The notes beneath the pieces were generated by a model that was not told where the DNA came from, did no database searches, and worked only from the letters and a program-made list of their open reading frames with translations. A program made the translations under genes and the position numbers. Below, one piece after another: positions 5,178 through 38,172 of a DNA stretch of 39,315 bases; position 1 is the first letter of the stretch, and each line of letters begins with the position of its first letter. Origin of the DNA: a virus; IMG/VR virus record IMGVR_UViG_3300017728_000029, positions 1 to 39,315 of that record. One strand, written 5' to 3'.

Positions 5178-5182
5178 GCTAC

Positions 5183-5190: not shown

Positions 5191-5194
5191 AGTC

Positions 5195-5226
5195 AAAAAA
5201 AAGCCAAACTATAAAGTCTGGCTTTT
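5195..5226 (-). terminator. Rho-independent terminator
   Basis: Read on the minus strand, AAAAGCCA pairs with TGGCTTTT (5226-5219 with 5206-5199). An inner ACT/AGT pairing sits around a 4-nt loop, and a run of eight T follows down to 5195. It lies 20 bp after the stop of the 339-aa structural gene and ends five bases before the next late promoter box. The A-rich opposite side could give weak termination in the other direction too, but no plus-strand gene needs it. Confidence 0.85.
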
Positions 5227-8461: not shown

Positions 8462-9109
8462 CTAACTTAATTGAACTCTTACGGTGTATATAATTTCTAT
8501 TATTCTATTTTGTGCTTTTTGTACAGGATGAAAAACAACATGTGTCAACATTCTACTTGTTTCTATAGGATCACTTCCGTCACTTGGAGAGGGATCTGTA
8601 GGATAACTAAAAAGTCCTAACTCGTCAAAAACATATGAACCATCGTTATTAGTACTGCTATCAAATAAATCTTGGTCTGCTGGTTCTGAATAACTTAATG
8701 TTGATGTTACTTTAATATCAGAGTATGATGTTCCTGTTATTACTTCTATTTGGTTTGTAGCATCTCCTGATGCTCCAACGATTTTTTTAAATGTTCTGCT
8801 GTATAAACTAGCAGAAGATTGGAATGCTTCACTTACTCTTGGAGACTTGTAAATTATTTTACCTGTAGTATCTACACTAGTACCACCGTTTCCAAATGCC
8901 ATGTAATATACTCTTGCATCATCTGTTCCATTAAGAGCATTCGCTACTATGAAAGCCATGTTACCATAGTGAATTGCATTTCTTTTATTCACTAACTCTT
9001 CACCAGTTTCTTTATCTCTGATTAATATGTGTCCGTTCATATTTAAACCGGCATTTTCATTAGGTTGTAAGTCTTTTTGTTCGTTCATTTTCTCTTTGCT
9101 CTCTTCCAT
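8462..9109 (-). CDS. Conserved virion-associated protein, about 215 aa
   Basis: A protein of the fibre region with MNGHILIRDKETGEELVNKR then NAIHYGNMAFIVANALNG, a motif I know from tail-associated marine-phage proteins of unknown role. The rest is beta-rich (VYYMAFGNGGTSVD, VTSTLSYSEP, FDELGLFSYP). The last strand, RIIEIIYTVRVQLS, looks like a subunit-contact edge. Starting at GTG 9124 would put the late box inside the gene, so a later start is needed. I chose the ATG at 9109, which lies exactly 5 nt after the box. ATG 9112 and ATG 9088 (MNEQKDLQ, weak AGAGA upstream) are possible too. It is followed by the fibre gene 9 nt on. Confidence 0.72.
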   Translation of the reverse strand: MEESKEKMNEQKDLQPNENAGLNMNGHILIRDKETGEELVNKRNAIHYGNMAFIVANALNGTDDARVYYMAFGNGGTSVDTTGKIIYKSPRVSEAFQSSASLYSRTFKKIVGASGDATNQIEVITGTSYSDIKVTSTLSYSEPADQDLFDSSTNNDGSYVFDELGLFSYPTDPSPSDGSDPIETSRMLTHVVFHPVQKAQNRIIEIIYTVRVQLS

Positions 9110-9114
9110 CATAC

Positions 9115-9122
9115 TATTTATC
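9115..9122 (-). promoter_or_regulatory. Late promoter box GATAAATA
   Basis: GATAAATA on the minus strand sits in the 33-nt space after the stop of the giant gene. The predicted +1 is the A of the ATG at 9109. It would drive the 215-aa gene and the 715-aa fibre gene. A weaker AATAAATA lies at 9140-9147. Confidence 0.7.
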
Positions 9123-9142
9123 ACTATTGGTTATGTGTGTAT

Positions 9143-12100
9143 TTATTTAAGATTATGTAAGAAATTCATTACAGAAGTATTTCCACTTACATTTCCTTTA
9201 TCTGTTAAACTTGTTGCTCCGCTATCTAACCATACGTTGCTATCAACGGAGTTTGCTACAAAGTTTTTAAATATTTGTGCTTCACTACCGTCCCATACTA
9301 TTACTGTATTATTACTATACCAATCTTGTATAGTTGTACCTTTTGTTCCCCTTATTAATCCTGACAATTTATTATTTGCAAGATCAATTCTTGTGTATTC
9401 TATTCTTTCACTTTCTACCCATACAACACCGTTGACTGTTGCTGTTGGTTCACTGACTATATTTGCATTTGCTACACTAATTTCATTATCTACTATAAGT
9501 AAATTTGCTGTTAATAAAGTATTACCAGTACCATCTTGTAATTTTCTCATATACTCTGTTTTACCAAATAAATCCATTGTTATTTGGAATTCAACTGTTG
9601 ACGCATTAGCACTTGCACTGGCTAAACTACTATTACCTGACAACTTGTTGCTTGTTAAAACATTAACAATAAGTGTTTCGTAAGGATCAAACAATGCCAT
9701 TTCTTCTGGTACACGTTCGCCGTAACCTACTCTTTGGAAAGTTACTCCGTCAAATCCTTCGTAAGCAACATTATCCTCTGTAAGTGTACTTGATTCTGTA
9801 AATGAACCCACATAATTTTCAACTTCAATAGGATTATCATATGATGCTCTTTCAAAAGGTTCGCTACCAAATCCAAATTGTGTTTGATATTGTTGCGTAC
9901 TTGCACCTGCTACAACCTTTGTAAATAGGTTAGCATCTAATGTTGTTCCTCTAAACTTACCTCCTACTTTAGTACTAACTAAATCTAATGTAGAGTTCAG
10001 GTTACCAGCATTAATGGCCGCCAATATGTTTGCAGAACTTCCTATAATATTTGCATTAGATACTGAATCAGTAACATTAAAATAACTATCAAGTTCTACT
10101 TTAAATTGTGCTTGTACTTCAGGGTCGTATTTAAATACTCTATCAGCATATCTATAATATACATTACTTGCTATTGTTGTATTACTATTATGTGTATTAC
10201 CAAAATCCATTAATGTTACAATATTTGTTGCTATACTTGTATTAGTATCTGCTTTAGTATAGTCTAGATTTGCATTCTCTAATGGTTCAAAGTCTGTTAA
10301 TATAGTATTTGTTCTGTCAAATTTAATGGTTGACTTTATTTTTCTTATAGGTGTATCAGCATTTGCATTACCACTAAAGCCAAAATACTTGACATAATTG
10401 TTATTTGTTTGTATAATATTTGAATCGGACTGTAAGAAGTCATCCAGAATTCTGACATTACCAGTTGTACTGTCAGGGAACGGTGGCTTATCAAAGTCAC
10501 TTATCATATTATCAGTTATGAATTCTTTAGGTGGACTTTTACCGTCTTTATATTCTCTAACTTTTGAAGTATAAGGTTTTGCCTCATCAAAATATTTAAG
10601 TACCTTATCAAAGTTATCGACTTTAAATCCATCTACCTTCACTAGGTCTTCTTCTTCTTTTTCTACATATACATAACTTGTTTTGAATGCCCAACTTAAT
10701 TGATCTTGTTCTACTGCAGAATATTTTAATAATGCAAAATATAATTCATTAAATTTAACTGTATTCTTAAATACATTATCTCTTAATGCAACTATTAATT
10801 CTCTCAATTCTGTTTGCATTGTTACATTGGTATCGTCTGTAAATATTGTATCTTTTAATTTTACAGTTTCTTTTTCTATAGCAATCTGTGAGAATGAATT
10901 TGTACTTGAAACATATTTCCATAATTCATATCTACTAGTTACATTTGGTTGTACTTGTATAATTGCCCCATCTTTGATACTGCCTGTAATTGCTGTAAGT
11001 TCTGAAATACTACCTACATTTAAAATTGGTTTGAATGTACTATCATATCTAATTTTTTTATTGTTTGAAGCATCTGTTCGTATGGTGTCAAACCAATCTA
11101 CATTTTCTATATAAGTTCTTGTTGTAGGTAAATTTCTATCCCAATTAACAAATTCACTATTAAGTTTTATGTCTGCTAGTATTTCGTTTAATGTAAATGC
11201 AAGTTCTCTTCTTGCTTCTTTTACATCCTCGAACATTGTTTGTCTAGGTCTGAATGCAACACCATATTTTTCTACTTCACTTAATAATGGATCTGGAACT
11301 GATTTACCAGAAGCATCAACACCACATAAACTATCTATAAGTTTGTTGCCTAAGTCATCTGGTATTATACTATTGTTGTCGCCTTCTCTTAATAACTTCC
11401 AAGCATCATGTTTTTGTCCTATAGGATTAAGATTTCTGCTAAGATTAATTTGTAAATTTTGATCTTCTTGTTTAATTATAGAACTAGCATTTGTCAAAAC
11501 AAACGATGAATCACTTACAAAACTAATTAAAGGAAGTCCTTGTCCTATTGGGTCAGCAAGTAGTCTTGCTAATTCAAATGTTGAATGTTTTCTATTAAGA
11601 TCTATACTTACATGTGTATCTAATTCTCTTTTATTCTGTACCCAGAAGTAATAACATATCTCATTAAGTCCTGTTTCAGTATTTTTAACTGTTTCTGTAA
11701 TATAGTCTACAGCATTTTTAGGATTACCTGTACCTCGATATGACTGAGGTAGTGTATTACTTTTTACCCATTCGTATAATGTAACACTACTTCCAGGGAA
11801 TGCCTTGCCCCAATTTAACCAACGTTCTCTATTCGTTCCTTGCTCGTACCATCTATATCTGATAGTGCTAGTATCCCACCAAACTTTACCAACATCTTTA
11901 CTTCCGAATCTTGTTCTTTCTAAATTGTAAACTACAGGATCACTTTCTCCAATAAATTCTATTTCTTTTTCTAAAAATCCTGGAATAACTCCTTTATATG
12001 GGTCATACTCATAAAGATCCCAATCTTTTTCACCTGTTTCTGAATCGTATATTATTGTATTGTTTACAAATTTAGAATCAACTAAACTTTCTTTTTGTTT

Positions 12101-15100
12101 TTGTATTACATTAGATTCTAAATATGCCCAACCTACTGAACTATTTGTTGCATCGTGATATCCTAATGTGTCTACCCATACTTTATCATAACTTGTTAAA
12201 GTAACATTACCGTCATCTATATGAGTATGACTATCTATAACAGATGTGTTTGCAAATCTGTGACTTTCTAAATAATAAACGTCACAGTTTTGTTGTAATG
12301 ATAACGTATTAACAGGAGCACCTGACAGATTTCTTAATTCATATTGGTAAAGGTCTGTTGTAAAACTTAACCCAACTGCATTTGCGGCTCCGGTTCCTCC
12401 TGTATTACCTGCAACTCCAAATAAACTATTAGGATCTGTTTCTAATCTATCAATACAATTAATTTCTAATGTAGTTGCTTCAGTTGTTGCAAATCCTGAT
12501 GTACCGTATCCTTCTACGTCTATGATATCAAATCCTGTTGTTGTATTTTCTCTATTATCTCTGTCTTGTTCAAAAGATTTTGTAATAATAGTTGATGTCA
12601 TACATAACATATCCTGATTATAATCTCCTTTTGGTAATCCTATTCTATCTAGGAAGCCAGGGATATTTTCATCTAATCTTACACCATCAAAGCCTGGAGT
12701 TCTAATTTTTATTGCTGTTATACAATCATTAACAGGTTCTGTATCTAAATATATGTCGTCATCTAAGCCTGTATCTCCTAAATTATTATTAAAACATGCC
12801 ACTATGTCTTCAGGTATATTAATTTCTGTTACTCTTTCTGGTAATCCTAATGTACTTCTTGCATTTCCTTTCTCAGAACAGTCAGGAATTTCTCTTGATG
12901 TTAAAAATACTCTTGCTCCTGAACCACCTGCTAGTGTATCATTGATAGGATCGTAACCTCCAGGTGATCCTAAACGTGTACCATCTCCCAGCGGGTCAAT
13001 CTGTCCTAGTCCTGTACCTTGATAGAAATTGCCATCTGCATCTGTACCTGTTTCGTCACCTAGATTCACATAATCGTATTCTAAAGGAATACCCATTGTC
13101 AAATCACTTGGGAATACTTTATATATACCCCTGTCTATAATTTGTAAACTGGTAATCGTACCTATTGCGTCTATAGTAGTAACAACAAACTTTGCTACTC
13201 TAGGAGGCACACTTGCACCTGAGGATATTTTAGCATGTGCTGTTGCTGGTAAAACTTTTCCTGTATCATTTAGATCTATAATTCTTATTTTAGGTGGATT
13301 TGTAATATCGTATCCTTCACCACCGTTTACCATTAAAATATTTTGTATAGCACCGCTGTCATCTAAAATAACACTACCTGTTTTTGCTCCACTACCAGGA
13401 GTATTTCCATCTCCAATATAAACTACAACGTTTGCTGTATCAGAATATCCAGTTCCTGGGGAATCTATACATATTTCTGTAACACTTCCATAAGGATCTG
13501 CTACAGGAGTACCTCCTACTAGCCTTAATCTATCTCCAACAACATAACCACTACCACCTGTAGATCTACTTGAAGAACTACTGGATAATACAGACCCTAC
13601 TCCGTCCCCTGCAAAACTATTTAAAGTACCTGTGATGGTTCCAGTTGGACCATATGTTGTATAATCTACAGTTGTTGCACCTATACTTGAATTACTTTGT
13701 GAGAATCCAGGTAAAACAACGGTATTACTTACATCAACAACACTTTGTTCAAATCCTCTTACAACGTGGAAGTCTAATACTTCTTTGTATATGCCACCTG
13801 CACATCCGTCTCTAATAATAATTGGTGCGTTACTACAACTACTAATTCTAATTGCATCTACACCATTTACTTTTGTGTTTTTAACTTCAATACCACTACC
13901 TGTTGGCCCACATTTTAAAGTATTAATTACAACCTTAGGATCACTGCCTGGGAAAGTATATTTTCTATTGTTTATAAGTAATTCTTCGCCAGGTTTTATA
14001 CCCTCTAACTTATCAAAAGGTATTGATATACCAGGAGTAGGTTGTGTTAAGTGACATCCTATTTCTGGACCGCCTGGAAGGTAATTTCCTTCCGGAGTTC
14101 TTAATAATGGCTGTATTGAGAAGCCACCTGCTCTATTAAAATCTATATTATCTGAATCTGGAGGTGATATTTCAGTTGGAATTATAGAATCTGCTGGTAG
14201 ATAATCATATGTTGGCTGATTAGGCCCTCTATTAACAAAATCAATTATTTCACTACCAGGATATCTTATTTGTATATTATTAGCATCTATGCCTGAGGCA
14301 TCTCCTAAAACATTTCTAATACTACTTCCATCTGGTAAAATTAAGTCTCCCCCTATTTTTTGTGCCGCAAAGGATATACTTGCGTCAGTTTTACTAAAAT
14401 AAGGATTATTTAATTTTGTAACAAAATTATAATTGTAATCTTTTACGTCAATTGCTCTTAAAGGACTTGGTTTAAGTGGTACTTTGTTTGCTAATGGTGT
14501 TGCCAATGGTACTTTTTTACCGCCTGTAACCTTTTGCATTGTAGTATTCACATATTGGCTTCCTTCTAAAGGAATAAATCTACCAATATCATTCGCTTTT
14601 ACTGTTTTTACTGTTTTTCTAAGTACATTTGGTATAAATCTATATCCTGCTAAACTAGGTAAGCCCACATCTCCAAAATTAGCAGTGAAAAACGCCTTAG
14701 GATTGTTTCCACCTGGTATTAAATTTTTAATTCCTTTGACACTACCAGAAATTAGACTATCAATCATTTGTGTTGTATTTAATTTTTGTATAGTGTTTGG
14801 TACTATAAATGGTGTAAACGGCACTTTAACTGGTAAAGGACTAAACGGAATCGAAGGAAATGGCAACTGTGGTATAGGGGAAGGTATAGGAAACGGTGCT
14901 GTAGGGGGTGCCACATACACTGGTCCATAAGTTTTTAATGTCTGTGCTTGTATTCTAGCAACACTTCCGCCGCCTGATTTACCGCCGCCTGAACCAACGC
15001 CACCTGTAGTTCCGCCACCTGTAGTGCCACCGCCTGTAGTACCACCTGTAGTACCACCACCTGTGGTAGAACCACCGCCTACTGGTGTATTAATTGGAGT

Positions 15101-18100
15101 TTGTGGTAAACTACTACCACTTACTGTTGAATTTCCGTCACTTGCAGTATCACAAGGTCCAGTTGTTACAGGATTTACACCAGGATTAGGAATATCTGGC
15201 CCTATTTTAGGATATCTTAACAAGAATCTGTACACACTACTAGATTTATATACAACTATTTTTATATAATCGCCTTGAGCCTTATCATAATTAATTCTAA
15301 CAGCACCACCGTATTTTACACCAGTGTTATTCGGTGCAGATCTGGCACTAACTTCAAAGTTTCTAATAACACCTGCTGGGACTGGGTTTCTTCCGCCTCT
15401 TGCTTTGGCTTTCTGTGCATTTGATAATATATCTGACTTTTCTGCTTCTGTAAGTACACTTAAATTGTTTACTTGACTAGAACCTATTAAAGAACCTTGT
15501 GTAACTTGATCTCCTTGATATATTTCTATACCATCAGCACCACTATACATATCAAATAATACTTCTACAGTACCACTTGCACCTGGATTAAACAACCATT
15601 CGTCGTTTGTACCTGCATTTCCTTTGCCCCAGCCTCTTGTAGATTGTTCTACAAATTCTTCCTGTATTAAGGAACTAGATGTTGATGTATTTCCTGTAAC
15701 GGGCGGTGTTGTTGTTGTAGGATCTTCAATTGTTGCTGTTGTACTTAATGAATTTGATCTAGTACTTAAATGGAATCCAACAGAATTCCAATGGTTACTA
15801 CCGTATTTTGCTCTTCCGCTTATAGTTACTGTTTGCCCTGCTGTAACAGTAATTTCTAGTATTTGGCCTGATCCAGAATAGTTTTGATCTGCTTTTCCTA
15901 AATATTTAGGTATAATTTGTGTTCCATCTACAAATATCTTAGATGTACTTGCAGTATTTCTTGCAGAATAATATGCATGTACATAAAAAGTACCTGCTTC
16001 ACTAAATGTACAATTTAAACTAAATGTATTTGTACTTCCGTTATCAGCCCAAGTCATTGCACCTAACAATCCATCTGCTGGCATGTGTTTACTACCACCA
16101 AATTGTGTTACTTCACCTCTTTTAGGTCCTGTTGTTACATAGTAACCAGAGTATGTGTTTTGCCATCTTCTTGCACCTTTACCGTTACCTGAAGCACTTA
16201 CACTTATAGTACCACCGTAATTTTTATTAATATATTTTTTACCGTTTCTATTTGTAACAGTTGAGGACACAGGTGGTGGTGACGGAGCACAAATATCACA
16301 TAATTTTACGTCTAATGCCGCAAATGCTTTAGTTGGATCTATAATTGGTGACCCAATATAATCAGTTCTTTGTCTTGTTTTACCACTATTTTGAATATCA
16401 TAAAGTGGTATTTGTGTATTTGGAATAACTGAGCCTAATGATCTACCCGGAATTTTAGGATTTCTTAATCCAAAACCTGGATAATCACCTACTCTTGCTC
16501 TATGATCTCCTACAATTCCATCACCTGATACGTCATCTAATACTTCTCCAGGGAATCCGTATTTAAGATCGTCTTCAGTTGCAAATGGCATATAACCTTT
16601 TAAGGTTAATCCTTCCATGTTAGGTGATCTTGGTACATACGGGCCTGATCCTGCTATTTGTGTTGCAGGAATACCTGCATAAACCTTTTCACTACATTCA
16701 ATGTTATTAATCATTGGAATTGTAAGACCGTCGTCATCTACTAATCCCCTTCTTAAATCTATTTGTCTATTAAATTCTTCTTTTATAGATTCCGGGGAGT
16801 TTACATTGTTGATATTAATTAAAGAATTGTTTAATGTTATTGCACCATGATCCAATGTTGTAATTGTAGTTGGCATTCCTGCTTTAAACCTTCCGGCTTC
16901 TATATCTACACTTATTGATACATTAGTTGTAAAGTCTTGAGTTGCATTATAATATACGCCAGCATTTCTTATTCTTTCATCTTTAGATACAGTCAGTCCT
17001 GCTGACCAATCTCTAAATTGTTCACTGGCATATGGATAAAATCCGAAAGCATTATCTACTAAAACTGTATTTGCAGTAACATCACTTACTCTGTAAACTT
17101 GGTTATAATATCTTGGTGTTGCCAAATGAACTGCAATACGTTTACCTGTATATGATACATTAATACCATGATCTTCTGTTGTATTAATAGTAATACCTTC
17201 TGGAATAATATTTCCAGTAGAGGCCACATTTGCATTAAAAGGAGCATCAATCTTAAATGTATCTTTACTTGCACTTTCTACATAATAAAAACCTGAATAT
17301 GCATTTGCATCTAATTTTACTAATTCTCCTGATGATAAATCATGATCTGTAGCAGTAATTTGTGTCTTGCCGAATATACCATAGGATAAATTACCTGCAT
17401 CTATATTTGCTGAAACATTTGATTGTGTAACTGTAAATCCAGTTATACCTACATTACTTATTACATGTCTTTGTGCATGTAATGGGTGCTGTTCTTCAAA
17501 AACAAATCCACTTATTCCTAAATCTGCTACAGTAACATATTCGTTATCAAAGTCATCTGTCAAATCTATATTTTGATTAGTTAAATCTATATCAATTGTT
17601 ACTGTATTGTTTGCAGTATCAACTTCAGATACTGTGAAAGAATTATTATTGTATAAATTATTTGTTGCTGTTAATCTTACTACATTATTTGCGGCAACTA
17701 TTCCTGCACCATGTAAATTAATGTTTGCTACGCCAAGTTTTAATTTACCTGTATGTAGTCTTGTAAGAGTTATACTGGTATTTGTAGCAGGTAAATGTGT
17801 TGCTGGTAAAATTATATTACTTTCGTTAAAGAAGCTCACAGTACTATTTGCATTGGCATTGTAAACAGCCATTTCTAAACTTTCTAAAGGAATAGTTGCA
17901 CTATTACCTGCATATATTACATTTGCAAAATCGTAACTGTCATTTACTGTAAAACTAAGTGTTCTATTTGATTCTGAAGTATTATTAAGGTTAGATGTAT
18001 TAGACTTTGTAACATATTCAACATTACTTGTAGTGAAGGCTCTGTCTGTAATACTTGTTACAAAAAATTCTACCTGTTCGCCGTTTTGTAAGGAACTTTG

Positions 18101-21100
18101 AGAACCTGTAATTTGTACTGTATTACTCCCTATAATGTTTGCATCTGCATTTGTGTAACTGCTAATTGCAGGTGTAATATTTGAAATACTTACTACTCTT
18201 GTAGGGCCTATGTTTCCTATATTAGCAGTAATCATTTCTGCTCTACCAAAGTTTGAAATTTGTACAGATTTTCTTCTTACTATATCTTCATTTTGCCAAA
18301 TAACAAATTCATCAGATAAATCTGCTTTCTTTATAACAAGAGCATAATCTAAAAATCTTGATAAATCATTTTCTAATAATTGATTACTGTCTACATAATT
18401 AAATAAACTTCTTTCTGTATAAAGATGTGCTGTTTCTGTTACATCATCTTGTTCTACAAATGTGATATTCCCTTTATTTGCTTGTTTTAATTTGTAAACA
18501 TTCCAATCTAAATTTTCACTTTTAGCAACGTGTATAAAGTCATTTCCTGTTGGCTTAAATCTTATATTATCTGCAAATAATTCTGCAACTCCGCCTAAAT
18601 CAAATGCACTAAAATTAACATTAGATTCATTTACATAACCTGCATTAGGTAATGGATTATATTTAGTATCTGTTATTCCCCTAAATGAAACATTTCCAGT
18701 TTTAGGCCATAAGTTACTTTCTCTTACACCACTTGGCTTCTTAAGGAATCTTGTTGTATCATCTATGTCAATTAAAATCACTTCATCGTCTTTTGCATCA
18801 GGTGTAATTTCAAATATTCTAACACTTTTAACATGTACAGCAATATCATCATTCGTTGTTGCTTTTACACTTAATGTACTTCCTGGTAAGTCACCTTGGT
18901 AAGCATCTTCTAAATCAATTGTTGCTCTTTCTACAATATAAACATTTGAACCTGATAAAATTTGTGTATCAGGTAGTAGCCCGACATCTGGAAAAGTTAT
19001 TGTTGTTGTATTGTCTACTCGATATCTTGTTTCATAACCAGGGTTTTCAATTTTTGTTCCATTTAAATATACATCTACAAATGGATATACGCCATCGTAT
19101 TCTGTAATATTATTACTATCTAATGCTGTTGAAGAATTTACAGCACCTGTGTTTACAGCAAAACTTACTGAACTATTTCCTATGACTGTGGAAGGAGCAG
19201 TAATTTGCCATCTATCTCCAGCATCAAATACATAATTACTACTTGCAATAGTTGTGCTGTCAACTGATACTATAATGTTAGACTTTACTGTATTGTTTGC
19301 GATATTTACTGCATACCTCTGTCTTGGCTGATATCTACCTGCAGTAATATTTAAATTTGCTAATGTAGGTGCATGTCCGCCTATTGTAAAGTCGTTACCT
19401 GATATTTTTAATCCTTTATTAATAATTACGTTACCGCTATTAGAAATATAATTTTCTATAGTATGTGCTGTAATATTAGCATTAATAGTTGCATCAGAAT
19501 TAATTGCTGTTGTAATGTTTGCAACATCTGTAATTGAATTTAAATTAAAAGATGCAGTTGCCCCAAATTCATCTGCTATAGTAATTGTTCCTAAAGCATT
19601 TATATTTGCATTAGATGTACTAAGAACATTACCACTAGTATTTTGAGTTACAGATGTTATAGTATTAGAAGATCTTGCATTTATTCTTGCTAATCTATTT
19701 GAAACATTACCTACACTTATTTCACCTGTAATAATTGTAAGTCCAGGTGTATCAGTATATCCTGTGCCTTGCTCTGTAATATTAATAGAACCTATTAATC
19801 CATTGTTATCCAGTACGGCTGTTGCCTTTGCTGTTGTGCCTGTAGTAGGTTCTGTAATTAATACTTCAGGTACATCAAAGTATTTGTGTTTTGTATTTAA
19901 AATATCTATTCTGTCTACAACTCCTGTTGTATCTTCAGGGAAGGATAATGTAAACAGTTGTGGATCTTGTACAAAATCAGTTTTGTCTAATGCAAGTTCT
20001 ACACTTTGATTATTTTCTAAATCTCCGAACGAGCCAACTTTAATAGCCCACTCATCATATATGTCCATGTCACCTTGTATAATAGCACTACTTCTTCCTA
20101 TTCTACTTAAACTTGTTTTTGTTCCTTTGTTTTGTATAAATCCTTTGTAAAATTCAAACTGCTGATCGTCATCTATTTGTAATTCTGCTAAGTAATCTTT
20201 TTCTTGATACCCAAATAAATTTCTGGCTGTTTCATAAACTTGTTTTTCAACTGGAATAAATCCTAGTTCATGATACCTTCCCATGCTTTCTGCTAAATTA
20301 TCTAAATTAGGTTTTAGTGCATCGCCTTCAATTAGGAAACCTTCACTAATAAATCTTCCGTCCCAGTTAGCAGTTTTATTACCTTTAATTTTTATTCTAG
20401 ATTGTTTTTGATTGTATAAAGGTATGTACAATGTATCAGCAAAATCTGTAACATTGTCTAATACCATTGCATGTTCTATTTCTCTTGTAAATAAACATAC
20501 AGAATAAATTTCTTTTCCTATTGGTGGTATTATTTCAACTCTCAAATTTCGTCTATTGATTGCACACTCTTTAGGATTTATAGATTTGCCGTCTTTATCC
20601 ATAATATTAAACATATTAAATTCGTTACGTTTAATTTTTGCTACAAATCCTTTAGTTGTTTCAAAAGTTACCTTACTGGCCATTGGTGATAATTCTAAAG
20701 TATTATCTGTTTGCCAGTTTCCTTGTAACCAGAATAAGAATTGTTTTGCGGAATATAACCAATCTCTTGTATCATTTATACTTCCATCATACTCACCGAA
20801 TGTATATCCTAATTGCTTTTGATATCTTCCTAAAGATATTAAGAAATCAAATACATCTTGCTCATTTGCATAGACAGTTCCATATTCTACTTTTTTAATT
20901 AAGTTTGTTGTATCTAAAAATACTGCACCTTCTTTAAAATTAATTTGAGGAAGTTTATTTAATTTCTTATAAAGTAGTGATGAGAAGGTTGTTGCCTTAG
21001 GCACATATTCTTTTGCTTCATAATACACATCTTCATATCTAACAATAGTTCCTTTATTATAAGATTTATTTGCCTGCCAATCTACAAAAGGATGTGCCTC

Positions 21101-24100
21101 TCCGCCTACTTGTACTTTTGAAGATCTTCCTGTTACGTCACTTTCTAAAATTTTGAAATGGCCCAAATTTTTATCGTAACCTTTAACACAATAACCTGCT
21201 GTTGTTTTTTGTATAATTACACCTTGGTATATATTTCTTGTTTTGTAAGGAGAATTATGAATATCTACTGTGATATTTTCTTGTGGTATTATTAAATTAG
21301 TACTACTACCTGTTGTACTAAATTGATCCATGGACATAGTCATAGTATCTTTGTCTATATATCCTGAGAATCTATATCCTAATTTTACATTTAAGTTTCT
21401 TAATTTTTCAACAAAATTAGTAACAACATCTAATCCTTGGAATCTAAGCCAACTATTTACAAACTGTGTGTACCCAATATTTGTTATTGAATTACCATTT
21501 GAATCTATATCACCGTGTATATTAAAGTGAGTACTATCTAAGAAGTTCCAATTTTTTCTTGTTGTATTGTTAATATATTTTTTATAGTTTGCTGGTGCTT
21601 TTGTAATTTTTGTAGGATCACTAAAGACTGTAGCAAATTTACCTGGACTTGCTAAACATAATAATTCTGCTATTGCAAACGGGTATTTTACACTATATTT
21701 CCATGCATTTTCTACTGGTGCTCCGTCTCCGAATTTCCATTGTGTGTCTAGATTTGCGCCTTCTTTAAGTGTAATATTTGTTGCCGACTCGCTTTTCTTG
21801 GCGTATGTTGCCGTTGTGCTTGTTAATGCTGTACCATTTTTATTTGTATCTATATCAAAACCTGTTCCTGCATAAACTCCTGCATAAGTTAAAGGATCAC
21901 TATCAAATGTTGTTGTGCCACCGCCTACTGCGTATGGGAACATAGGTGTACCGGTATCGTCTATAGTTGCAACATAATATCTTATTGCTGTACTAGGAGA
22001 ATCAGGTGTAAATCCGTATCTTGTATTGTATCTATCTGCATATCCGTCAATTCCGGTCTTGGTAGCATCGTATTCATAATCCTGTACAAATTCACCTGTA
22101 TGAGCTCCTTTAGGTCCTGTGCCTCTATTGCCTGCTTTTAATTTAAATGCACTCTTTATATTTGTAATACTGCTACCGCTGTTCATAGCATTAGCATAAC
22201 CATAAGGACCGTAAATTGGTAGTCCGTCAAATGCCCAACCTATAACACCAGAGTGTGTTGTACTGTTACCCCAAACACTACTGTTACTCATATCTTCAGT
22301 TGGTATTGCTGTAAATATTGTACCGTCTTCTGTGGTTTTGGAAATATCTCCATTTGCTCTACTTGGTGCTGTTTGATACCCTAGATCATATATCCAAGTA
22401 TTGTCTGTGTAAGTATCGGATAAAGGACTTGCTAGTGGTAATCCATTTATTAATATTGCACTAGAGCCTTGTACTAATTCATTATTAGTTGTTGATTCAT
22501 TACCGAAACTCAATGAATTGTAATTCATATTATTAGGTATTCTGTATGTGGATGGGAAAATTCCCTGTTCTGGTGCTCCGTCTGTTTGATCTATTAATCT
22601 TCTTGAATAGTTAGGTATATTATAACTTTCAATATATCTATGTACAGCATCAAATTGTACATTAATTCCGTCTTCTGAAAGGAAACTTGTTGTTTTAAAT
22701 CCTTGTGTTACATCTGGTTCAGTTGTTGTCCATACAATTCTAAATGTACTTACGCCTGTGCTAGTAATTTCTTTTGGCGTTTTTAAATTTGCATTAGCAT
22801 CTACTGGGATCAATTCTATTAAATTAATTCTTGTAGCTCTAGACCTTCTACTAAATCGATTTAAAATATCTCTATATAATTCATTAGTTACATTTTCTCT
22901 AGGCCCTTGTCTTATAATGCCTTTTTCAAGATCTTCCCACATAGGCCTATTATTACTTCCGTAGTCACTATATGTTGTTGTTATATATTGATTATCCCAC
23001 CATTCTGGTTTCTGAATAAACCCTAACATTTCCCATGGATGCGTGTGAGGTCTTACTGTATCGAAATAGTATTCATACCAGCCTCTCCAATGTCCAGGAA
23101 TAGTTCCTGTGCCTGTTTCTAAAAATGCAGTACCTTCGAAATTTTCTGTATAGTTCCATGTCCAAGGATTATTGTTGTCGAAAAATTCATTTTTTACAGG
23201 GTCTACTTTGTTTTCTACAACCCAGTTTTCAAAACTTGTTTGTAGTAAATCATTGTAGAGGTCCCATGCTGGAGATTCTCTTCTCCATCTACCCTGTCTT
23301 ATATCAAGTACATTTAATTCTGGATATTCGTTTTTATCTCTGAATTCTGCTTTTGCAGAATTATAAATTCTTTTTTCAAACTCTAAAACTATATCATCTC
23401 TTTCATCGTTATAGATTGGTGTTCTACTACCGTCGTGTCCAACAATTAATTCTTGTGAATCTTGGAAGGTATTATCTGTAATCTTTTCAGGATAATATAG
23501 AGGATATAAACCCATTGTGCTTGGTGTAGGTGGACACTCTACACTATCTCTATCTTCGTTATAAATTTTAAATTCAATTTCATCTAATAGTTCTGGATTG
23601 TAATTTTTAAATGTTACTGTAAGAGGACTAAATGTAAGTGTGTAATCTTCACCAACAGTCAAAAGTGTTTTTATATTGTCTCTTATGTAATAAACTAATA
23701 AACTGTTTTCAACTTTATCTAAGTCTAATGAAGTACTTATTGTATGTGATGCCAAAGTAATATCATTAACAATTATAGACTCTTTACTATAATTGTCTCC
23801 AAAAGGTAATATATAAGTTTGACCAAATACATTTCTACCTACACTAAAAGATATTAAATTTCTTAATACTTTTTCTAGTATTTCTTCGTTTGAAAAATCT
23901 TTAAAATCTACAACATTATAATAATCATTAAGTTCTTTAAAAAATCTCTTTTTATATTTGTTATATTCTGCACCATTAAATCTTAATGCATCTACAATAT
24001 TATGCGGTTGGTCGTCTAATAAAAAGGCACCTAAAACTAAGTCTTGATTTGGTTGTACTATATCTGTTGCATACAATTCTTCTCTAGTTAGAGAACTAAA

Positions 24101-26080
24101 GTTGTTTACACTTAATGCATCTCCAGTGAACCCAGGTTGTTTTTCCATATAATTTTTAAAATGTGGTAAAAACTCTGGCTCTGAAATCTTTGTAACTTCC
24201 TCTTTGAAAGGGTTATTGCCCCATGCTAAAGGTAATTCATGTTTACTTTTATTTCCTATTACGTTACTAAGTCCTCTAGAAAATACAGATATTTCAAATA
24301 TGTCGCCAACTACAAAATTGTTTCTATCTATTTCTATTTTAAATCCATCACTTATATAAGTAAAATTATGGAATGCTTCACCGTTCTTTTTAACCCTTAT
24401 ATTCATACCGCTTGGGAAATCTGCTCCTGTTCTAGGCGAACATCCTAACTCAAATATTTGTTCGAAATTGTCAAACATTGTTCTAGTAATTTCAATTACT
24501 CTTTCTATTCGTTGCTGACTTTTCCATTGTGGGTTTTTAAAGTTATTATGATATTGTGCTGTCTTTCCAATTTTAGCACTTAAAGAACTAGTTCCTGTAC
24601 CATCATCAGACGTTTTATATACTGACCTTAAAATTTTATAGTAGTAATAACCAGGAATTTCTGTTGGTGTTGTGCTACCTATAACTATGTTGTTATAAGT
24701 TTCTGTTTCCATAAAGTTTTCAAAACTTATTTCACTAGCATTTTTAAATGATCTAAATGCTAGTGGTAAATTATAAATTTTATCTACTACACCAGTTCCA
24801 ACTTCAAAGCCAAATATTTTATTACCATTAAAATTATTACTTGGGTATATTGTATTGTCGCCTAGGTATCTTAATTTATCATCGTAAAGTTTAAATAAAG
24901 GTGCTTGATTAAGTGTAGATTTAGTTTGTGCTTGTACTAATCCGTCATTATAATAAAATTCTTTTCCTATTTCTGCACTACCTGAAGAAACAAATACAGT
25001 ATCTCCGCTACTTAATATGCTACTTACACTTAAACTTATTGCATTTGCATTTCCAGAATCAACACTAGCAACATAAACGTTTGCAGATATTTCTTTACTA
25101 TCATTAGGGAATATTATTTTAGTACCAGTTTCTATAGTTACTGTATCAATAGCAACATTACTGGCATCTAAACCAACTACTTCGCTGAAAAGTAATGTAG
25201 AACTAACATCAACATTACCTTTACTTGTAGAACCAACATTAAATAATTCTAAGTCTCTATCAAATTCTAAAATAGGCCTATCTGCCTGAGTAATTTTTGC
25301 AGGTATATCGTCACCTGCGTCTGTAAAGTTTTCTTTGTGATACCAAAAGTTTACCCTACTCCAAACATTTTTATTTTCTGCACCTCTTCCTAATAAAACA
25401 TAATCTTTGCTTGTTTGCGGATTATTATATCCATTTGCATAATTTACATCTACTGGTACAAGTATAATGCTTTCTCCTACGCCTTCAACAATAAATTCTT
25501 TGCCTACGTATGCATCAGTATCAATTACATAATCGCCTGAGAAAGTAACTTTCATACCGTTTTTAAATGCTTTACCGCCTGATGGTGTGTATGAGGTCTG
25601 CCCTACAATGTCTTTGTCAACATTTATTTGGTCGTTTATACTACCTATAATTATTATTGCTGTAGGGCCTGTTGTACTCCAATAATATTCTTGATAGTTT
25701 AAAAATTTGTTAAGTTCTACCGGTGGTAAGAAAGTTGTAAAATTAGTTTTTAACCATTGATTTTGTTCAAGTGTATCTACATTATAATTTTTTAAAGTAT
25801 CTACAAACTCATCATAAAAAATAAAGTTTTCACTTACGCCTGTATTAGCATTAGTATTATTAATTGTAGGTAATAAATTATAGTACTGTTTGTCTATATC
25901 ATCTTCGTATATCCAAGTACCGTCTACAAGTTTATCCTGTGATGTTTTCTTTCCTACAAATCCACTTATACTTTCTACATTTGCTTTACTGTATAATTGT
26001 TCAACAGTACCTTCAAAGAAATTCTTTATGGTATCAGTCTGTAGAATTGCGGGTAACTTATTGTAAATTTTATCTGCCAT
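9143..26080 (-). CDS. Giant multidomain baseplate/virion structural protein, 5,645 aa
   Basis: One uninterrupted frame directly after gp6, where T4 has gp7 and gp8 (T4 gp7 is 1,032 aa). The N-terminus (LPAILQTDTIKNFFEGTVEQ, then LYSKANVESISGFVGKK) matches large baseplate-linked proteins of marine T4-like phages. Rough order: 1-900 beta-rich; 925-1090 Trp-rich; 1270-1385 a YHYH domain (GWAFDGLPIYGPYGY); 1500-2020 mixed, Trp/Tyr-rich; 2100-3050 Asn/Thr-rich beta repeats; 3180-3193 a calcium-loop motif DVSGDGIVGD; 3270-3430 a carbohydrate-binding-like beta segment; 3667-3697 Gly/Thr linker; 3717-3760 Pro-rich linker; 4167-4270 G-x-GY beta repeats; then a C-terminal region with GYGERVPEEMALFDPYETL and ERIEYTRIDLANNKLSGLIR, motifs of marine-phage structural proteins. 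No signal peptide. ATG 26080 lies 2 nt after the gp6 stop, so translation is coupled. Structural role likely; exact place inferred. Confidence 0.85.
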   Translation of the reverse strand: MADKIYNKLPAILQTDTIKNFFEGTVEQLYSKANVESISGFVGKKTSQDKLVDGTWIYEDDIDKQYYNLLPTINNTNANTGVSENFIFYDEFVDTLKNYNVDTLEQNQWLKTNFTTFLPPVELNKFLNYQEYYWSTTGPTAIIIIGSINDQINVDKDIVGQTSYTPSGGKAFKNGMKVTFSGDYVIDTDAYVGKEFIVEGVGESIILVPVDVNYANGYNNPQTSKDYVLLGRGAENKNVWSRVNFWYHKENFTDAGDDIPAKITQADRPILEFDRDLELFNVGSTSKGNVDVSSTLLFSEVVGLDASNVAIDTVTIETGTKIIFPNDSKEISANVYVASVDSGNANAISLSVSSILSSGDTVFVSSGSAEIGKEFYYNDGLVQAQTKSTLNQAPLFKLYDDKLRYLGDNTIYPSNNFNGNKIFGFEVGTGVVDKIYNLPLAFRSFKNASEISFENFMETETYNNIVIGSTTPTEIPGYYYYKILRSVYKTSDDGTGTSSLSAKIGKTAQYHNNFKNPQWKSQQRIERVIEITRTMFDNFEQIFELGCSPRTGADFPSGMNIRVKKNGEAFHNFTYISDGFKIEIDRNNFVVGDIFEISVFSRGLSNVIGNKSKHELPLAWGNNPFKEEVTKISEPEFLPHFKNYMEKQPGFTGDALSVNNFSSLTREELYATDIVQPNQDLVLGAFLLDDQPHNIVDALRFNGAEYNKYKKRFFKELNDYYNVVDFKDFSNEEILEKVLRNLISFSVGRNVFGQTYILPFGDNYSKESIIVNDITLASHTISTSLDLDKVENSLLVYYIRDNIKTLLTVGEDYTLTFSPLTVTFKNYNPELLDEIEFKIYNEDRDSVECPPTPSTMGLYPLYYPEKITDNTFQDSQELIVGHDGSRTPIYNDERDDIVLEFEKRIYNSAKAEFRDKNEYPELNVLDIRQGRWRRESPAWDLYNDLLQTSFENWVVENKVDPVKNEFFDNNNPWTWNYTENFEGTAFLETGTGTIPGHWRGWYEYYFDTVRPHTHPWEMLGFIQKPEWWDNQYITTTYSDYGSNNRPMWEDLEKGIIRQGPRENVTNELYRDILNRFSRRSRATRINLIELIPVDANANLKTPKEITSTGVSTFRIVWTTTEPDVTQGFKTTSFLSEDGINVQFDAVHRYIESYNIPNYSRRLIDQTDGAPEQGIFPSTYRIPNNMNYNSLSFGNESTTNNELVQGSSAILINGLPLASPLSDTYTDNTWIYDLGYQTAPSRANGDISKTTEDGTIFTAIPTEDMSNSSVWGNSTTHSGVIGWAFDGLPIYGPYGYANAMNSGSSITNIKSAFKLKAGNRGTGPKGAHTGEFVQDYEYDATKTGIDGYADRYNTRYGFTPDSPSTAIRYYVATIDDTGTPMFPYAVGGGTTTFDSDPLTYAGVYAGTGFDIDTNKNGTALTSTTATYAKKSESATNITLKEGANLDTQWKFGDGAPVENAWKYSVKYPFAIAELLCLASPGKFATVFSDPTKITKAPANYKKYINNTTRKNWNFLDSTHFNIHGDIDSNGNSITNIGYTQFVNSWLRFQGLDVVTNFVEKLRNLNVKLGYRFSGYIDKDTMTMSMDQFSTTGSSTNLIIPQENITVDIHNSPYKTRNIYQGVIIQKTTAGYCVKGYDKNLGHFKILESDVTGRSSKVQVGGEAHPFVDWQANKSYNKGTIVRYEDVYYEAKEYVPKATTFSSLLYKKLNKLPQINFKEGAVFLDTTNLIKKVEYGTVYANEQDVFDFLISLGRYQKQLGYTFGEYDGSINDTRDWLYSAKQFLFWLQGNWQTDNTLELSPMASKVTFETTKGFVAKIKRNEFNMFNIMDKDGKSINPKECAINRRNLRVEIIPPIGKEIYSVCLFTREIEHAMVLDNVTDFADTLYIPLYNQKQSRIKIKGNKTANWDGRFISEGFLIEGDALKPNLDNLAESMGRYHELGFIPVEKQVYETARNLFGYQEKDYLAELQIDDDQQFEFYKGFIQNKGTKTSLSRIGRSSAIIQGDMDIYDEWAIKVGSFGDLENNQSVELALDKTDFVQDPQLFTLSFPEDTTGVVDRIDILNTKHKYFDVPEVLITEPTTGTTAKATAVLDNNGLIGSINITEQGTGYTDTPGLTIITGEISVGNVSNRLARINARSSNTITSVTQNTSGNVLSTSNANINALGTITIADEFGATASFNLNSITDVANITTAINSDATINANITAHTIENYISNSGNVIINKGLKISGNDFTIGGHAPTLANLNITAGRYQPRQRYAVNIANNTVKSNIIVSVDSTTIASSNYVFDAGDRWQITAPSTVIGNSSVSFAVNTGAVNSSTALDSNNITEYDGVYPFVDVYLNGTKIENPGYETRYRVDNTTTITFPDVGLLPDTQILSGSNVYIVERATIDLEDAYQGDLPGSTLSVKATTNDDIAVHVKSVRIFEITPDAKDDEVILIDIDDTTRFLKKPSGVRESNLWPKTGNVSFRGITDTKYNPLPNAGYVNESNVNFSAFDLGGVAELFADNIRFKPTGNDFIHVAKSENLDWNVYKLKQANKGNITFVEQDDVTETAHLYTERSLFNYVDSNQLLENDLSRFLDYALVIKKADLSDEFVIWQNEDIVRRKSVQISNFGRAEMITANIGNIGPTRVVSISNITPAISSYTNADANIIGSNTVQITGSQSSLQNGEQVEFFVTSITDRAFTTSNVEYVTKSNTSNLNNTSESNRTLSFTVNDSYDFANVIYAGNSATIPLESLEMAVYNANANSTVSFFNESNIILPATHLPATNTSITLTRLHTGKLKLGVANINLHGAGIVAANNVVRLTATNNLYNNNSFTVSEVDTANNTVTIDIDLTNQNIDLTDDFDNEYVTVADLGISGFVFEEQHPLHAQRHVISNVGITGFTVTQSNVSANIDAGNLSYGIFGKTQITATDHDLSSGELVKLDANAYSGFYYVESASKDTFKIDAPFNANVASTGNIIPEGITINTTEDHGINVSYTGKRIAVHLATPRYYNQVYRVSDVTANTVLVDNAFGFYPYASEQFRDWSAGLTVSKDERIRNAGVYYNATQDFTTNVSISVDIEAGRFKAGMPTTITTLDHGAITLNNSLININNVNSPESIKEEFNRQIDLRRGLVDDDGLTIPMINNIECSEKVYAGIPATQIAGSGPYVPRSPNMEGLTLKGYMPFATEDDLKYGFPGEVLDDVSGDGIVGDHRARVGDYPGFGLRNPKIPGRSLGSVIPNTQIPLYDIQNSGKTRQRTDYIGSPIIDPTKAFAALDVKLCDICAPSPPPVSSTVTNRNGKKYINKNYGGTISVSASGNGKGARRWQNTYSGYYVTTGPKRGEVTQFGGSKHMPADGLLGAMTWADNGSTNTFSLNCTFSEAGTFYVHAYYSARNTASTSKIFVDGTQIIPKYLGKADQNYSGSGQILEITVTAGQTVTISGRAKYGSNHWNSVGFHLSTRSNSLSTTATIEDPTTTTPPVTGNTSTSSSLIQEEFVEQSTRGWGKGNAGTNDEWLFNPGASGTVEVLFDMYSGADGIEIYQGDQVTQGSLIGSSQVNNLSVLTEAEKSDILSNAQKAKARGGRNPVPAGVIRNFEVSARSAPNNTGVKYGGAVRINYDKAQGDYIKIVVYKSSSVYRFLLRYPKIGPDIPNPGVNPVTTGPCDTASDGNSTVSGSSLPQTPINTPVGGGSTTGGGTTGGTTGGGTTGGGTTGGVGSGGGKSGGGSVARIQAQTLKTYGPVYVAPPTAPFPIPSPIPQLPFPSIPFSPLPVKVPFTPFIVPNTIQKLNTTQMIDSLISGSVKGIKNLIPGGNNPKAFFTANFGDVGLPSLAGYRFIPNVLRKTVKTVKANDIGRFIPLEGSQYVNTTMQKVTGGKKVPLATPLANKVPLKPSPLRAIDVKDYNYNFVTKLNNPYFSKTDASISFAAQKIGGDLILPDGSSIRNVLGDASGIDANNIQIRYPGSEIIDFVNRGPNQPTYDYLPADSIIPTEISPPDSDNIDFNRAGGFSIQPLLRTPEGNYLPGGPEIGCHLTQPTPGISIPFDKLEGIKPGEELLINNRKYTFPGSDPKVVINTLKCGPTGSGIEVKNTKVNGVDAIRISSCSNAPIIIRDGCAGGIYKEVLDFHVVRGFEQSVVDVSNTVVLPGFSQSNSSIGATTVDYTTYGPTGTITGTLNSFAGDGVGSVLSSSSSSRSTGGSGYVVGDRLRLVGGTPVADPYGSVTEICIDSPGTGYSDTANVVVYIGDGNTPGSGAKTGSVILDDSGAIQNILMVNGGEGYDITNPPKIRIIDLNDTGKVLPATAHAKISSGASVPPRVAKFVVTTIDAIGTITSLQIIDRGIYKVFPSDLTMGIPLEYDYVNLGDETGTDADGNFYQGTGLGQIDPLGDGTRLGSPGGYDPINDTLAGGSGARVFLTSREIPDCSEKGNARSTLGLPERVTEINIPEDIVACFNNNLGDTGLDDDIYLDTEPVNDCITAIKIRTPGFDGVRLDENIPGFLDRIGLPKGDYNQDMLCMTSTIITKSFEQDRDNRENTTTGFDIIDVEGYGTSGFATTEATTLEINCIDRLETDPNSLFGVAGNTGGTGAANAVGLSFTTDLYQYELRNLSGAPVNTLSLQQNCDVYYLESHRFANTSVIDSHTHIDDGNVTLTSYDKVWVDTLGYHDATNSSVGWAYLESNVIQKQKESLVDSKFVNNTIIYDSETGEKDWDLYEYDPYKGVIPGFLEKEIEFIGESDPVVYNLERTRFGSKDVGKVWWDTSTIRYRWYEQGTNRERWLNWGKAFPGSSVTLYEWVKSNTLPQSYRGTGNPKNAVDYITETVKNTETGLNEICYYFWVQNKRELDTHVSIDLNRKHSTFELARLLADPIGQGLPLISFVSDSSFVLTNASSIIKQEDQNLQINLSRNLNPIGQKHDAWKLLREGDNNSIIPDDLGNKLIDSLCGVDASGKSVPDPLLSEVEKYGVAFRPRQTMFEDVKEARRELAFTLNEILADIKLNSEFVNWDRNLPTTRTYIENVDWFDTIRTDASNNKKIRYDSTFKPILNVGSISELTAITGSIKDGAIIQVQPNVTSRYELWKYVSSTNSFSQIAIEKETVKLKDTIFTDDTNVTMQTELRELIVALRDNVFKNTVKFNELYFALLKYSAVEQDQLSWAFKTSYVYVEKEEEDLVKVDGFKVDNFDKVLKYFDEAKPYTSKVREYKDGKSPPKEFITDNMISDFDKPPFPDSTTGNVRILDDFLQSDSNIIQTNNNYVKYFGFSGNANADTPIRKIKSTIKFDRTNTILTDFEPLENANLDYTKADTNTSIATNIVTLMDFGNTHNSNTTIASNVYYRYADRVFKYDPEVQAQFKVELDSYFNVTDSVSNANIIGSSANILAAINAGNLNSTLDLVSTKVGGKFRGTTLDANLFTKVVAGASTQQYQTQFGFGSEPFERASYDNPIEVENYVGSFTESSTLTEDNVAYEGFDGVTFQRVGYGERVPEEMALFDPYETLIVNVLTSNKLSGNSSLASASANASTVEFQITMDLFGKTEYMRKLQDGTGNTLLTANLLIVDNEISVANANIVSEPTATVNGVVWVESERIEYTRIDLANNKLSGLIRGTKGTTIQDWYSNNTVIVWDGSEAQIFKNFVANSVDSNVWLDSGATSLTDKGNVSGNTSVMNFLHNLK
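15001..15072 (-). repeat. Short degenerate tandem repeat coding the Gly/Thr linker
   Basis: The plus strand carries five near-copies of cacctgtagt (one as cgcctgtagt, one as cacctgtggt), spaced 12-15 nt. Read on the minus strand they encode TTGGG-type repeats around residues 3670-3693 of the giant protein. Units are multiples of three bases apart, so gain or loss of units would change linker length without breaking the frame. It is a coding repeat, not a CRISPR. Confidence 0.8.
21926..22273 (-). other. YHYH-type domain inside the giant protein (residues about 1270-1385)
   Basis: The segment reads SGVIGWAFDGLPIYGPYGYA, then KGAHTGEFVQDYEYD, RYGFTPDSP, and IRYYVATIDD..GTPMFPY. This is the YHYH family layout: G(Y/W)A.DG.PIYGPYGY, a charged His/Asp middle, then a Y.Y.VT...FPY end. 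The namesake Y-H-Y-H string appears as DYEYD here, so putative ligand residues have changed. YHYH domains occur in bacterial surface proteins and marine phage virion proteins; their activity is not established. Family assignment is by motif reading only. Confidence 0.75.
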
Positions 26081-26082: not shown

Positions 26083-29000
26083 TTAATTAGCCAATGTAGT
26101 TTTAGTAATTTTATCTATAATCTCAATATCAGAAACCTTTGCTGTATTAACAAAGAATTCATTGCTTTCTGCTTTTATTTGGAATAAGTCTCCAAATTTT
26201 CCAGAATTATTTTTCGGTACAATAATTATACTACCTATTACACCACTTAGTTGTTGATGTACATAACTACTTAATTCTGTAAAGTAGAAGTTTTCACCGA
26301 ATTCCCAATTGGAAACATTAAAGTAATTATTGAATGCTTTTATAACTTTGGTTTTAATTTCATTATCACTTAATGTTGTTCCTGCAAGTTTAACAACTCT
26401 AAATTTAGCCTGTACACTTTCATCTGCGTCGGCTCCAAATAGCCTCTTGAATTTTGCACTTTTATATACTAATGTGTCACTAGCATTTTTAAAGTCCTCT
26501 AAGGTTTGGAACTCGTTTGATAACTCTTCACTAGTAGGTGATAGTGGGAAAGGAGTACCGGGTACATTAATATATTTTTGTATGCTTGTATTGTATGCAT
26601 TTGTTAAAACTAACATTTCAACAACATTACTAATACTTGGGTCTATTCTTACATCGTTTGGTGCTTTGTGGTCCCACTTCATAACACACGGCCTAACATC
26701 TGGTAATCTTGTATTTTGATCTTTACCTCTACCAATTTTTACAAAACAATCTGTTGATTCTACTAGACTTATATTATCAGGATCTGTACTACTTCTAGTC
26801 ATTACATAGAATTTTTCGTTTTCTACAACATAAATTTTTATACCAAAATATAGATTTGCTGTATTTTCAAATTTTTCTGCTAGTGCTAAAGTATCAACAA
26901 TAATATAATTTACTGTACTCCATTCTACAGGATCAGAATAACTTATAGGTGATATTGTTGCTGGGTTACCACTTGATTGAGTATTGTCCCAATCTGTTTC
27001 TCCTCGCCAATCTAGTATCACACCACTTACTGGTCTATCATAAACATACCCATCAAAATCTGAATAGTTTTCAAATATTATAAGATCCGTACTTGAAACA
27101 AATTCGTTAAATTGGAATGGTTTATCTGGAACTAAGTCACCATCTGTATCTACTGGTGCTACTTTAACTTTTCTGTTGTCTGTATATCCATCAGAATATT
27201 TAAATACATCTGAAATTTCATAAACTATATCTTCATCTAATCTATCTTTAGCAGACTTGTACTCAACTAAAATTTTATCCCTGCTTATAGCACCCGTTGT
27301 ATCAGTTGCAAATAAATGAAAGTTGTCATCTAAATTAGAATAAATTAATGTGCCTGTTTGTGCCGTAGCATTTGCATTTGTTAAAAGCAGTCTTCCTGTA
27401 TTAGTAGGTATGCTGGTATTAGAAAGTGTCACACCGTCTATACCATATGAATATATATTTGCATTACCGTGATAAACTTCTGTTAATCCTGTAGCATTAT
27501 TATACTGTTTAAATGTAACATTTCCATTGTTATCAAACAAATTATATCCGAATGTAGTATTATCAAATGTAAATGTTAAATTGCTTGGTAATTTAGAAAT
27601 ACGGCCATCGTTATTTGATAAAGTTACATTATTTGTAGAAATATTTCCGTCATCAAAATAAGGATTTAAAGAAACATTTGCCGCATTTACAAATCTATTG
27701 ACAGCAAGAATATTTGCTGGTGTATGAGTATTTGTAACAAGGTCACTTCTCATTATTCCAAAAGTACTTTGCCATGTAACATTTACATCAAACCACTTAA
27801 TATCTCTTGTTCTTAATGCTATGTTTGTTCTTAAACCATTGGGGTCGTAAAATGCAGAATTATCTAAACTTTGCCATGCATCTGCAACATTATCACTATT
27901 AGAATCTGACCAAACAAAACTTTCTGTAACTCCTGGTTTGTAATTTAATGTATTAAATGTAATAGTATCTTTAACTGCTTGAGTAGTATTGTCTGTAACT
28001 TTAACAGATTTTACATTATAAAATTTTAAATCGTTTGCACTTTGTACCACATAAGATAATCCTCTTATAGATACATTATATTTAAAACTAGTAGTATCTA
28101 TAGGACTATATTCAAATAAGATTAACCAACTATTATCTTTTCCTGATAATGTTTTATCTTGAGCATTTTGTATATCTAAAGAACCTGTTTTAAGTAAATC
28201 TGCATTACTTATTATGTAGTATGATTGTGCTGTTAAGTCAAAGCCTAAACCAAATGTACTTTTTCCGCTTAATGCTGTCTGTATAAGTGTTTTTTCTGCA
28301 TTTGTAAATGTTTTTCTTAAACTAGCAATTACTTCATCCGCTCGCCAATTAGAATTTACTTTATCACTTAATGTCCACGGCCCTATACTTGTACTTAATC
28401 CACTAGATAAAGCACCGTTGTTTTGTACACTTGTGACTCTTACCCATTTATAATTTGCTATATTAGTAGGATCAACAAATTTTATAAAAGTATTTTCTTG
28501 GAATACCTGTGTTGATGCTGTATTGTTTACCATAACTACAGTATCTGAACTACTAAATGTTTCAGTCATATAACCTGTTGTACTCTGAGTTGCTACCGGT
28601 AAAGGATTCCATCTAATATTTAAGGTATCTGTTGAGAATTTAGTTGGAATATAATTGCTCCATTTTTCTCTTAATGTATCATAAATTACATTATTCAATC
28701 TTTGTTCTTGTAAGTATTTTACAACGGTATTGTCTACAACTTCTGCAGGTGTATTGTTGTCACTTACTGTAATAGATTTTGTTAAAGGATCATCATCTTT
28801 GTATAAAAATCCATCTTCAGTATATGTCTCAACACTTTGGAATGTTCCTGTTGGATCATTTATATCTATATATCTACTATGCCCTGCATGTGTTCTATTT
28901 GTTGCTTTGAGTTTTATAATGTTTGATGATTGGCTCAAAGGAAATACATTATAATCTTGTGCTGATACCATTCTATTTTGTGTATAGAATGTTTGCGGAG

Positions 29001-30640: not shown

Positions 30641-30648
30641 TATTTATC
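30641..30648 (-). promoter_or_regulatory. Late promoter box GATAAATA for gp25
   Basis: GATAAATA on the minus strand is 5 nt from the ATG of gp25, giving a predicted +1 at 30635. It would drive about 21.5 kb of baseplate genes down to 9143, in which I saw no other promoter. It sits back to back with the plus-strand sigma70-type promoter at 30679-30706. Confidence 0.75.
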
Positions 30649-38132: not shown

Positions 38133-38172
38133 AACACAATATAAATGAACTATAATTTTGAGGAGATTATTA

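Follow-up and report, generated by a model that had tools for sequence, protein, structure and literature searches.

A family of very large proteins annotated as 'virion structural protein' is known from jumbo phages, its annotated members including PA5oct gp355 (3,857 aa), Atu_ph07 gp180 (4,449 aa), the giant protein of Phosso (4,555 aa), SCTP-2 gp140 (3,807 aa), that of Vibrio 2.275 (3,771 aa), RaK2 ORF070 (3,326 aa), GAP32_230 (3,341 aa) and CBB_236 (3,340 aa). In PA5oct, Atu_ph07, Phosso, RaK2, GAP32 and CBB, the genes are arranged in the order gp25 (or a gene in its place), gp6 and giant gene, and the gp6 slot is occupied by a large gene in both Vibrio 2.275 and SCTP-2. The annotation of the gp6-slot protein of Vibrio 2.275 includes a CBM 5/12 module, and the SCTP-2 protein is 3,096 aa long. 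CBB_236, which adjoins the baseplate wedge protein CBB_237, yielded 21 peptides by mass spectrometry (PMC5259590), and the record of PA5oct gp355 bears an ESI-MS/MS note. In phAPEC6, gp245 (381.88 kDa), assigned to the family by its size and tabled neighbour alone, was found in virions with 17 unique peptides and is tabled beside gp244, a 'baseplate wedge' protein (PMC7247149). Jumbo myophages commonly carry this family, relatives being encoded in at least 598 IMG/VR metagenome contigs, yet annotation stops at 'virion structural protein'.

Proteins of similar gigantism occupy the slot after gp25 and gp6, that of T4 gp7 (1,032 aa), in cyanophages: 4,307 aa in P-TIM68, 3,274 aa in Syn1, and, in S-SSM7, two proteins of 3,007 and 3,001 aa that are both labelled gp7 and align to separate regions of the single P-TIM68 protein. 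One cyanophage giant of this slot is annotated 'VrlC', and in pelagimyophages T4 gp7 was described in 2020 as seemingly replaced by VrlC, in a paper that also counts YHYH domains as putative receptor-binding parts (PMC7029224). For huge phages, a maximum protein length of 7,694 aa was reported in 2020 (PMC7162821).

The window analyzed here is an entire virus record of 39,315 bases that probably represents only part of a longer genome. Its minus-strand gene at 9143..26080 encodes, from an ATG start, a protein of 5,645 aa whose calculated mass is 621.7 kDa. The 16,938-bp open reading frame takes up 43% of the window and has no internal stop across its 5,645 codons, which, together with orthologous frames elsewhere, bears out the single intact 16.9-kb frame described in the initial annotation. 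Its ATG lies 2 nt downstream of the stop codon of a gp6-type baseplate wedge gene (26083..30261, minus strand, 1,392 aa; phrog_10646, bits 1054, and phrog_219), which follows a gp25 baseplate wedge gene (30261..30635, minus strand, 124 aa; PF04965, phrog_43). Directly after gp25 and gp6, the giant gene stands, as had been proposed, where T4 has gp7. The gp6 of the window is twice the length of that of T4 (660 aa). No gp8 was identified downstream of the giant gene in the window; the next gene (8462..9124, minus strand, about 220 aa; phrog_11259) more likely starts at ATG 9112 and has GATAAATA just upstream. Proteins of about 200 aa are found in this position in PA5oct, Phosso, SCTP-2 and Vibrio 2.275, whereas RaK2, GAP32 and CBB differ from the window in having a Clp ATPase gene downstream. 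On the plus strand, opposite to the baseplate genes, an ORF of 202 aa (30713-31321), with a 202-aa ORF in the corresponding position in three close relatives, has only a weak family match to esterase/lipase.

The motif NATAAATA, which resembles the core of late promoters of the T4 type, is strongly depleted in the window (8 copies found versus 36.3 +/- 6.1 expected). All copies (30641, 38050, 9115, 9140, 6298, 3970, 3069 and 148) are on the minus (coding) strand, mostly just before the starts of genes (gp25 and those at 37100-38029, 5246-6265 and 2965-3945), with two around the end of the giant gene. Because NATAAATA precedes gp25 and is absent from gp6 and the giant gene, except for one copy overlapping the giant's stop codon, its distribution fits a single gp25-gp6-giant transcript, for which the late-promoter-like GATAAATA at 30641..30648 (minus strand), ending 6 bp before the gp25 ATG, is a candidate start. 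In addition, sigma-70-like sites are about as frequent as chance predicts (92 found, 90 expected). The early suggestion that the giant gene has no internal promoter and depends on the gp25/gp6 transcript is therefore likely to be correct. A late-sigma-factor gene is located at 38158-39033.

Both halves of the giant protein match phrog_10938, 'virion structural protein' (E 8.5e-255 and 3.4e-71), and its N-terminal, middle and C-terminal scaffold blocks align by blastp to seven phage isolates; as judged by these matches, it is a member of the jumbo-phage family that includes PA5oct gp355, Atu_ph07 gp180, GAP32_230 and CBB_236. Blast mapping places the three conserved blocks at residues 1-1105, 1438-2117 and 4633-5200. 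The N-terminal scaffold (22766..26080, minus strand), which contains the PWEM[LF]GF block (residues 849-1105), aligns in 28-36 of 36 relatives and is covered by an AlphaFold2 model of residues 1-1100; the middle block lies at 19730..21769 (minus strand) and the C-terminal block at 10481..12184 (minus strand). The C-terminal end (residues 5493-5645; 9146..9604, minus strand) has the lowest dN/dS among the segments, and its conservation extends to only part of the family. The conserved ends noted at the outset are supported.

Between the middle and C-terminal blocks lies a central segment of variable length (residues 2046-4639; 12164..19945, minus strand), which is 2,595 residues long in the window's giant and is covered by few of the 36 aligned relatives. 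Among 27 complete members, the centre, taken as the distance from the middle block to the C-terminal block, ranges from 179 to 4,250 residues, and everything outside it sums to 3,408 +/- 308 aa (range 2,933-3,933); the two lengths show no correlation (r = -0.14, which describes these 27 members, themselves related to one another). This sample takes in complete frames only, leaving out edge-cut frames and one contig, G023, whose 7.2-kaa frame is missing roughly the first 400 residues. Upstream of that frame is an ORF of 815 aa, reflecting either a frameshift or a real split. Because the centre varies and the rest is nearly constant, the size range of the family, 3,326 to 7,914 aa, arises almost wholly from one place. 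The longest complete relative (7,914 aa, in IMGVR_UViG_3300020185_002701, G018) exceeds the huge-phage maximum of 2020 (PMC7162821), so the window's 5,645-aa protein is not extreme; many phages encode proteins of 3,300-7,900 aa in the slot after gp6, and a single giant protein in the gp7 slot is nothing unusual. Directly upstream of the 7,914-aa protein is a gp6-type frame of 1,378 aa. An IMG/VR scan with the middle scaffold block as query found eight close relatives, two of which carry the gene in full, and a scan of genome contigs returned no relative.

The named members illustrate this build. PA5oct gp355 resembles the giant in its scaffold blocks and C-terminal end (about 30-35% identity), in its gp25-gp6 neighbours, and is found in virions, but it lacks the YHYH insert and has a centre of 299 residues versus 2,595. 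Atu_ph07 gp180 and the Phosso protein share the scaffold blocks, the neighbours and a short stretch of the centre, but they have no YHYH match and their centres, of about 1,500 residues, are mostly unrelated. RaK2 ORF070 and GAP32_230 likewise have the scaffold blocks and the gp6 neighbour, but a centre of only about 180-190 residues; together with CBB_236 and phAPEC6 gp245 they are about 3,330 aa long, compared with 5,645 aa in the window.

Two segments of the giant were compared with known domains, with differing success. An insert between scaffold blocks (residues 1106-1437; 21770..22765, minus strand) contains the predicted YHYH domain, matching PF14240 at residues 1264-1372 (2e-17; 64.3 bits versus a gathering score of 25), although the giant has IRYYVAT in place of the literal YHYH signature, which is altered in the aligned relatives too. 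Members of the window's subfamily have this insert, the aligned isolates of the RaK2/PA5oct/Atu_ph07 group lack it, and the closest named relatives of its YHYH domain (36-43% identical) are those of the cyanophage giants that follow gp25 and gp6. The hint of carbohydrate binding fared less well: a CBM_5_12-like stretch is visible at residues 1668-1697, but its 21.7 bits fall under the Pfam cut-off of 26.2; the family profile matches the chitinase A1 domain 1ed7 at E 0.006. A calcium-loop-like motif, DVSGDGIVGD, was seen by sequence at residues 3183-3192.

The centre also holds two beta-rich modules (residues 3255-3645; 15146..16318, minus strand), module A at about 3265-3445, found in 2 of 36 relatives, and module B at about 3446-3645, found in about 8 of 36. 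They had no Pfam match and match no named lectin family; their AlphaFold2 model (residues 3254-3644) is weak, with a pLDDT of 54, and its PDB fold matches, with TM-scores near 0.17, were discarded as evidence on function. GLEYA and PA14 are lectin-type domains, and within the window's subfamily the centre of one relative (G022) matches both in Pfam (2.2e-10 and 3.7e-8, respectively) and that of G023 matches GLEYA (3e-6); cadherin and Ig domains occur in one further piece of unassigned position. Modules A and B do not resemble these GLEYA/PA14 segments by hhalign (probability at most 0.2%), as would be expected if different domains used one slot. A Gly/Thr-rich linker (residues 3646-3710; 14951..15145, minus strand), identified by sequence and containing a tandem repeat at 15000-15076, follows module B and is among the fastest-evolving segments by dN/dS; no internal repeats were found within the giant protein by blastp. 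By analogy with these relatives, the centre of the family looks adhesive. Between orthologues about 80% identical, the C-terminal scaffold changes more slowly than the modules, the linker and the YHYH insert, and the centre shows no swapping, only somewhat faster change.

A gene of this size might be suspected of being an assembly artefact joining separate genes, which the initial annotation had named as a possible refutation. No point in support of this was found. Two other IMG/VR contigs independently carry full-length orthologues of 5,613 aa (G003) and 5,568 aa (G005), about 80% identical to and colinear with the window's protein, both frames ending in a stop codon; further close relatives are incomplete frames, and isolated phages carry homologous single genes. 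Overall dN/dS, measured against these two and a third, incomplete relative, is 0.14-0.15, and by segment it is 0.055-0.315, well below 1 in 14 of 14 segments; these ratios are rough, some segments having a high synonymous difference, but they indicate purifying selection on every segment. Because of the two orthologues and this selection, an assembly join is rejected as far as sequence allows, and we give it practically no credence. A single gene might still encode a polyprotein from which several virion proteins are released by cleavage as the particle assembles. The length and modular build of the giant would suit such processing, and T4-type phages encode a prohead protease. However, mass spectrometry of phAPEC6 and CBB gave one entry per whole gene, and, even with peptide lists that are compatible with cleavage, we regard processing of this kind as very improbable. 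The presence of the window's own protein in virions is supported through the relatives detected by mass spectrometry (PA5oct, phAPEC6 and CBB), and these direct data are for members with short centres (299 residues in PA5oct, about 180 in the GAP32-like members).

Two other explanations, each unlikely but more deserving of attention, concern what the protein is. The giant might be an enlarged true T4 gp7, or a gp7-gp8 fusion, that has drifted beyond recognition. In favor of this are its identical place after gp25-gp6 and the cyanophage slot proteins, one of which matches T4 gp7 residues 726-822 with an hhalign probability of 94%, suggesting that gp7 can reach several thousand residues. That same comparison served as a positive control, against which the three scaffold profiles of the giant's family matched the T4 gp7 family profile with a probability of 1% or less, a result that stayed negative when the N-terminal profile was rebuilt with 57 sequences. 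The scaffold profiles of the cyanophage giants are unrelated to those of the giant, and the former keep a T4 gp7-like piece, of which the giant's family shows none. In addition, single sequences of T4 gp8, gp9 and gp10 reached at most 0.2% against the N-terminal scaffold profile. Of the structure prediction proposed initially, residues 1-1100 and 3254-3644 were covered. Residues 1-1100 gave a confident AlphaFold2 model (pLDDT 80.4). In a viral library its matches included Atu_ph07 and further proteins of the family, with E values as low as 4e-80, but it had no global PDB match (best E 0.014), and T4 gp7 was absent among the best 50 PDB matches listed. For the scaffold, no usable hit came from PDB searches with single sequences or profiles, and ribosomal L3, the best match of the N-terminal profile (E 0.04), was taken as chance. 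Neither these searches nor the model of residues 1-1100 linked the giant to any solved baseplate wedge protein. The giant shares with T4 gp7 its gene position after gp6, but no detectable sequence similarity and no match among the fold results listed for residues 1-1100. Descent from gp7, gp8 or gp10 was not supported, and homology to T4 gp7, gp8, gp9 or gp10 is rejected on present evidence. The giant might instead be a side-fibre or whisker-type tail adhesin that is encoded beside the wedge genes and acts outside the wedge, a reading that we also doubt. Its beta-rich modules, Gly/Thr-rich linker and YHYH domain, and the GLEYA/PA14 domains of relatives, could be taken this way, as could a stretch of about 76-80 residues, perhaps at about 755-845, whose fold locally matches the N-terminal domain of tail fibres of the T7 type in several independent entries (probability 0.93-0.99). 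The match to this domain of T7 gp17 is local only, and profile comparison gave it no support. Against an adhesin outside the wedge, the scaffold is conserved and its place after gp6 fixed, though the baseplate fibres of CBB and RaK2 differ (PMC5259590). Furthermore, RaK2 and GAP32 keep the scaffold though the centre is nearly absent, suggesting that its constant function is probably not adhesion.

We favor, with a probability of roughly 0.62, the explanation that the giant is a virion protein of a T4-related jumbo myophage that combines an outer baseplate-wedge scaffold beside gp6 with an exchangeable, probably glycan-binding centre. The baseplate-wedge role is argued from synteny and the virion proteomics of relatives, rather than from the 'baseplate-like ends' first proposed. 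The giant would be made from the gp25-gp6 late transcript, and its scaffold of about 3,400 residues, comprising the N-terminal, middle and C-terminal blocks, would sit beside gp6 in each wedge, in the outer part of the baseplate wedge, where it would take the structural role of T4 gp7; we infer this wedge position and copy number. The centre and the YHYH domain would project outward, and the beta-rich domains of the centre would be exchangeable and probably attach to glycans on the host surface. Glycan or receptor binding by the centre is plausible because adhesin-type domains sit in the variable centres of relatives. Several results count against this reading: neither sequence nor fold comparison gave a link to a solved baseplate wedge protein, modules A and B match no named lectin family, the closest orthologues show no swapping of the centre, and the direct virion data come from short-centred relatives.

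More tentatively, the family may consist of a near-fixed baseplate scaffold with an in-chain accordion, of 0.2 to 4.2 thousand residues, of exchangeable host-binding domains; this we consider possible rather than probable. A near-constant scaffold with one accordion segment is a testable rule for where jumbo myophages vary, and the family includes cultured phages suited to testing it. If the accordion does carry host-binding domains, recognition of the host would be part of the wedge itself, beyond separate fibres alone.
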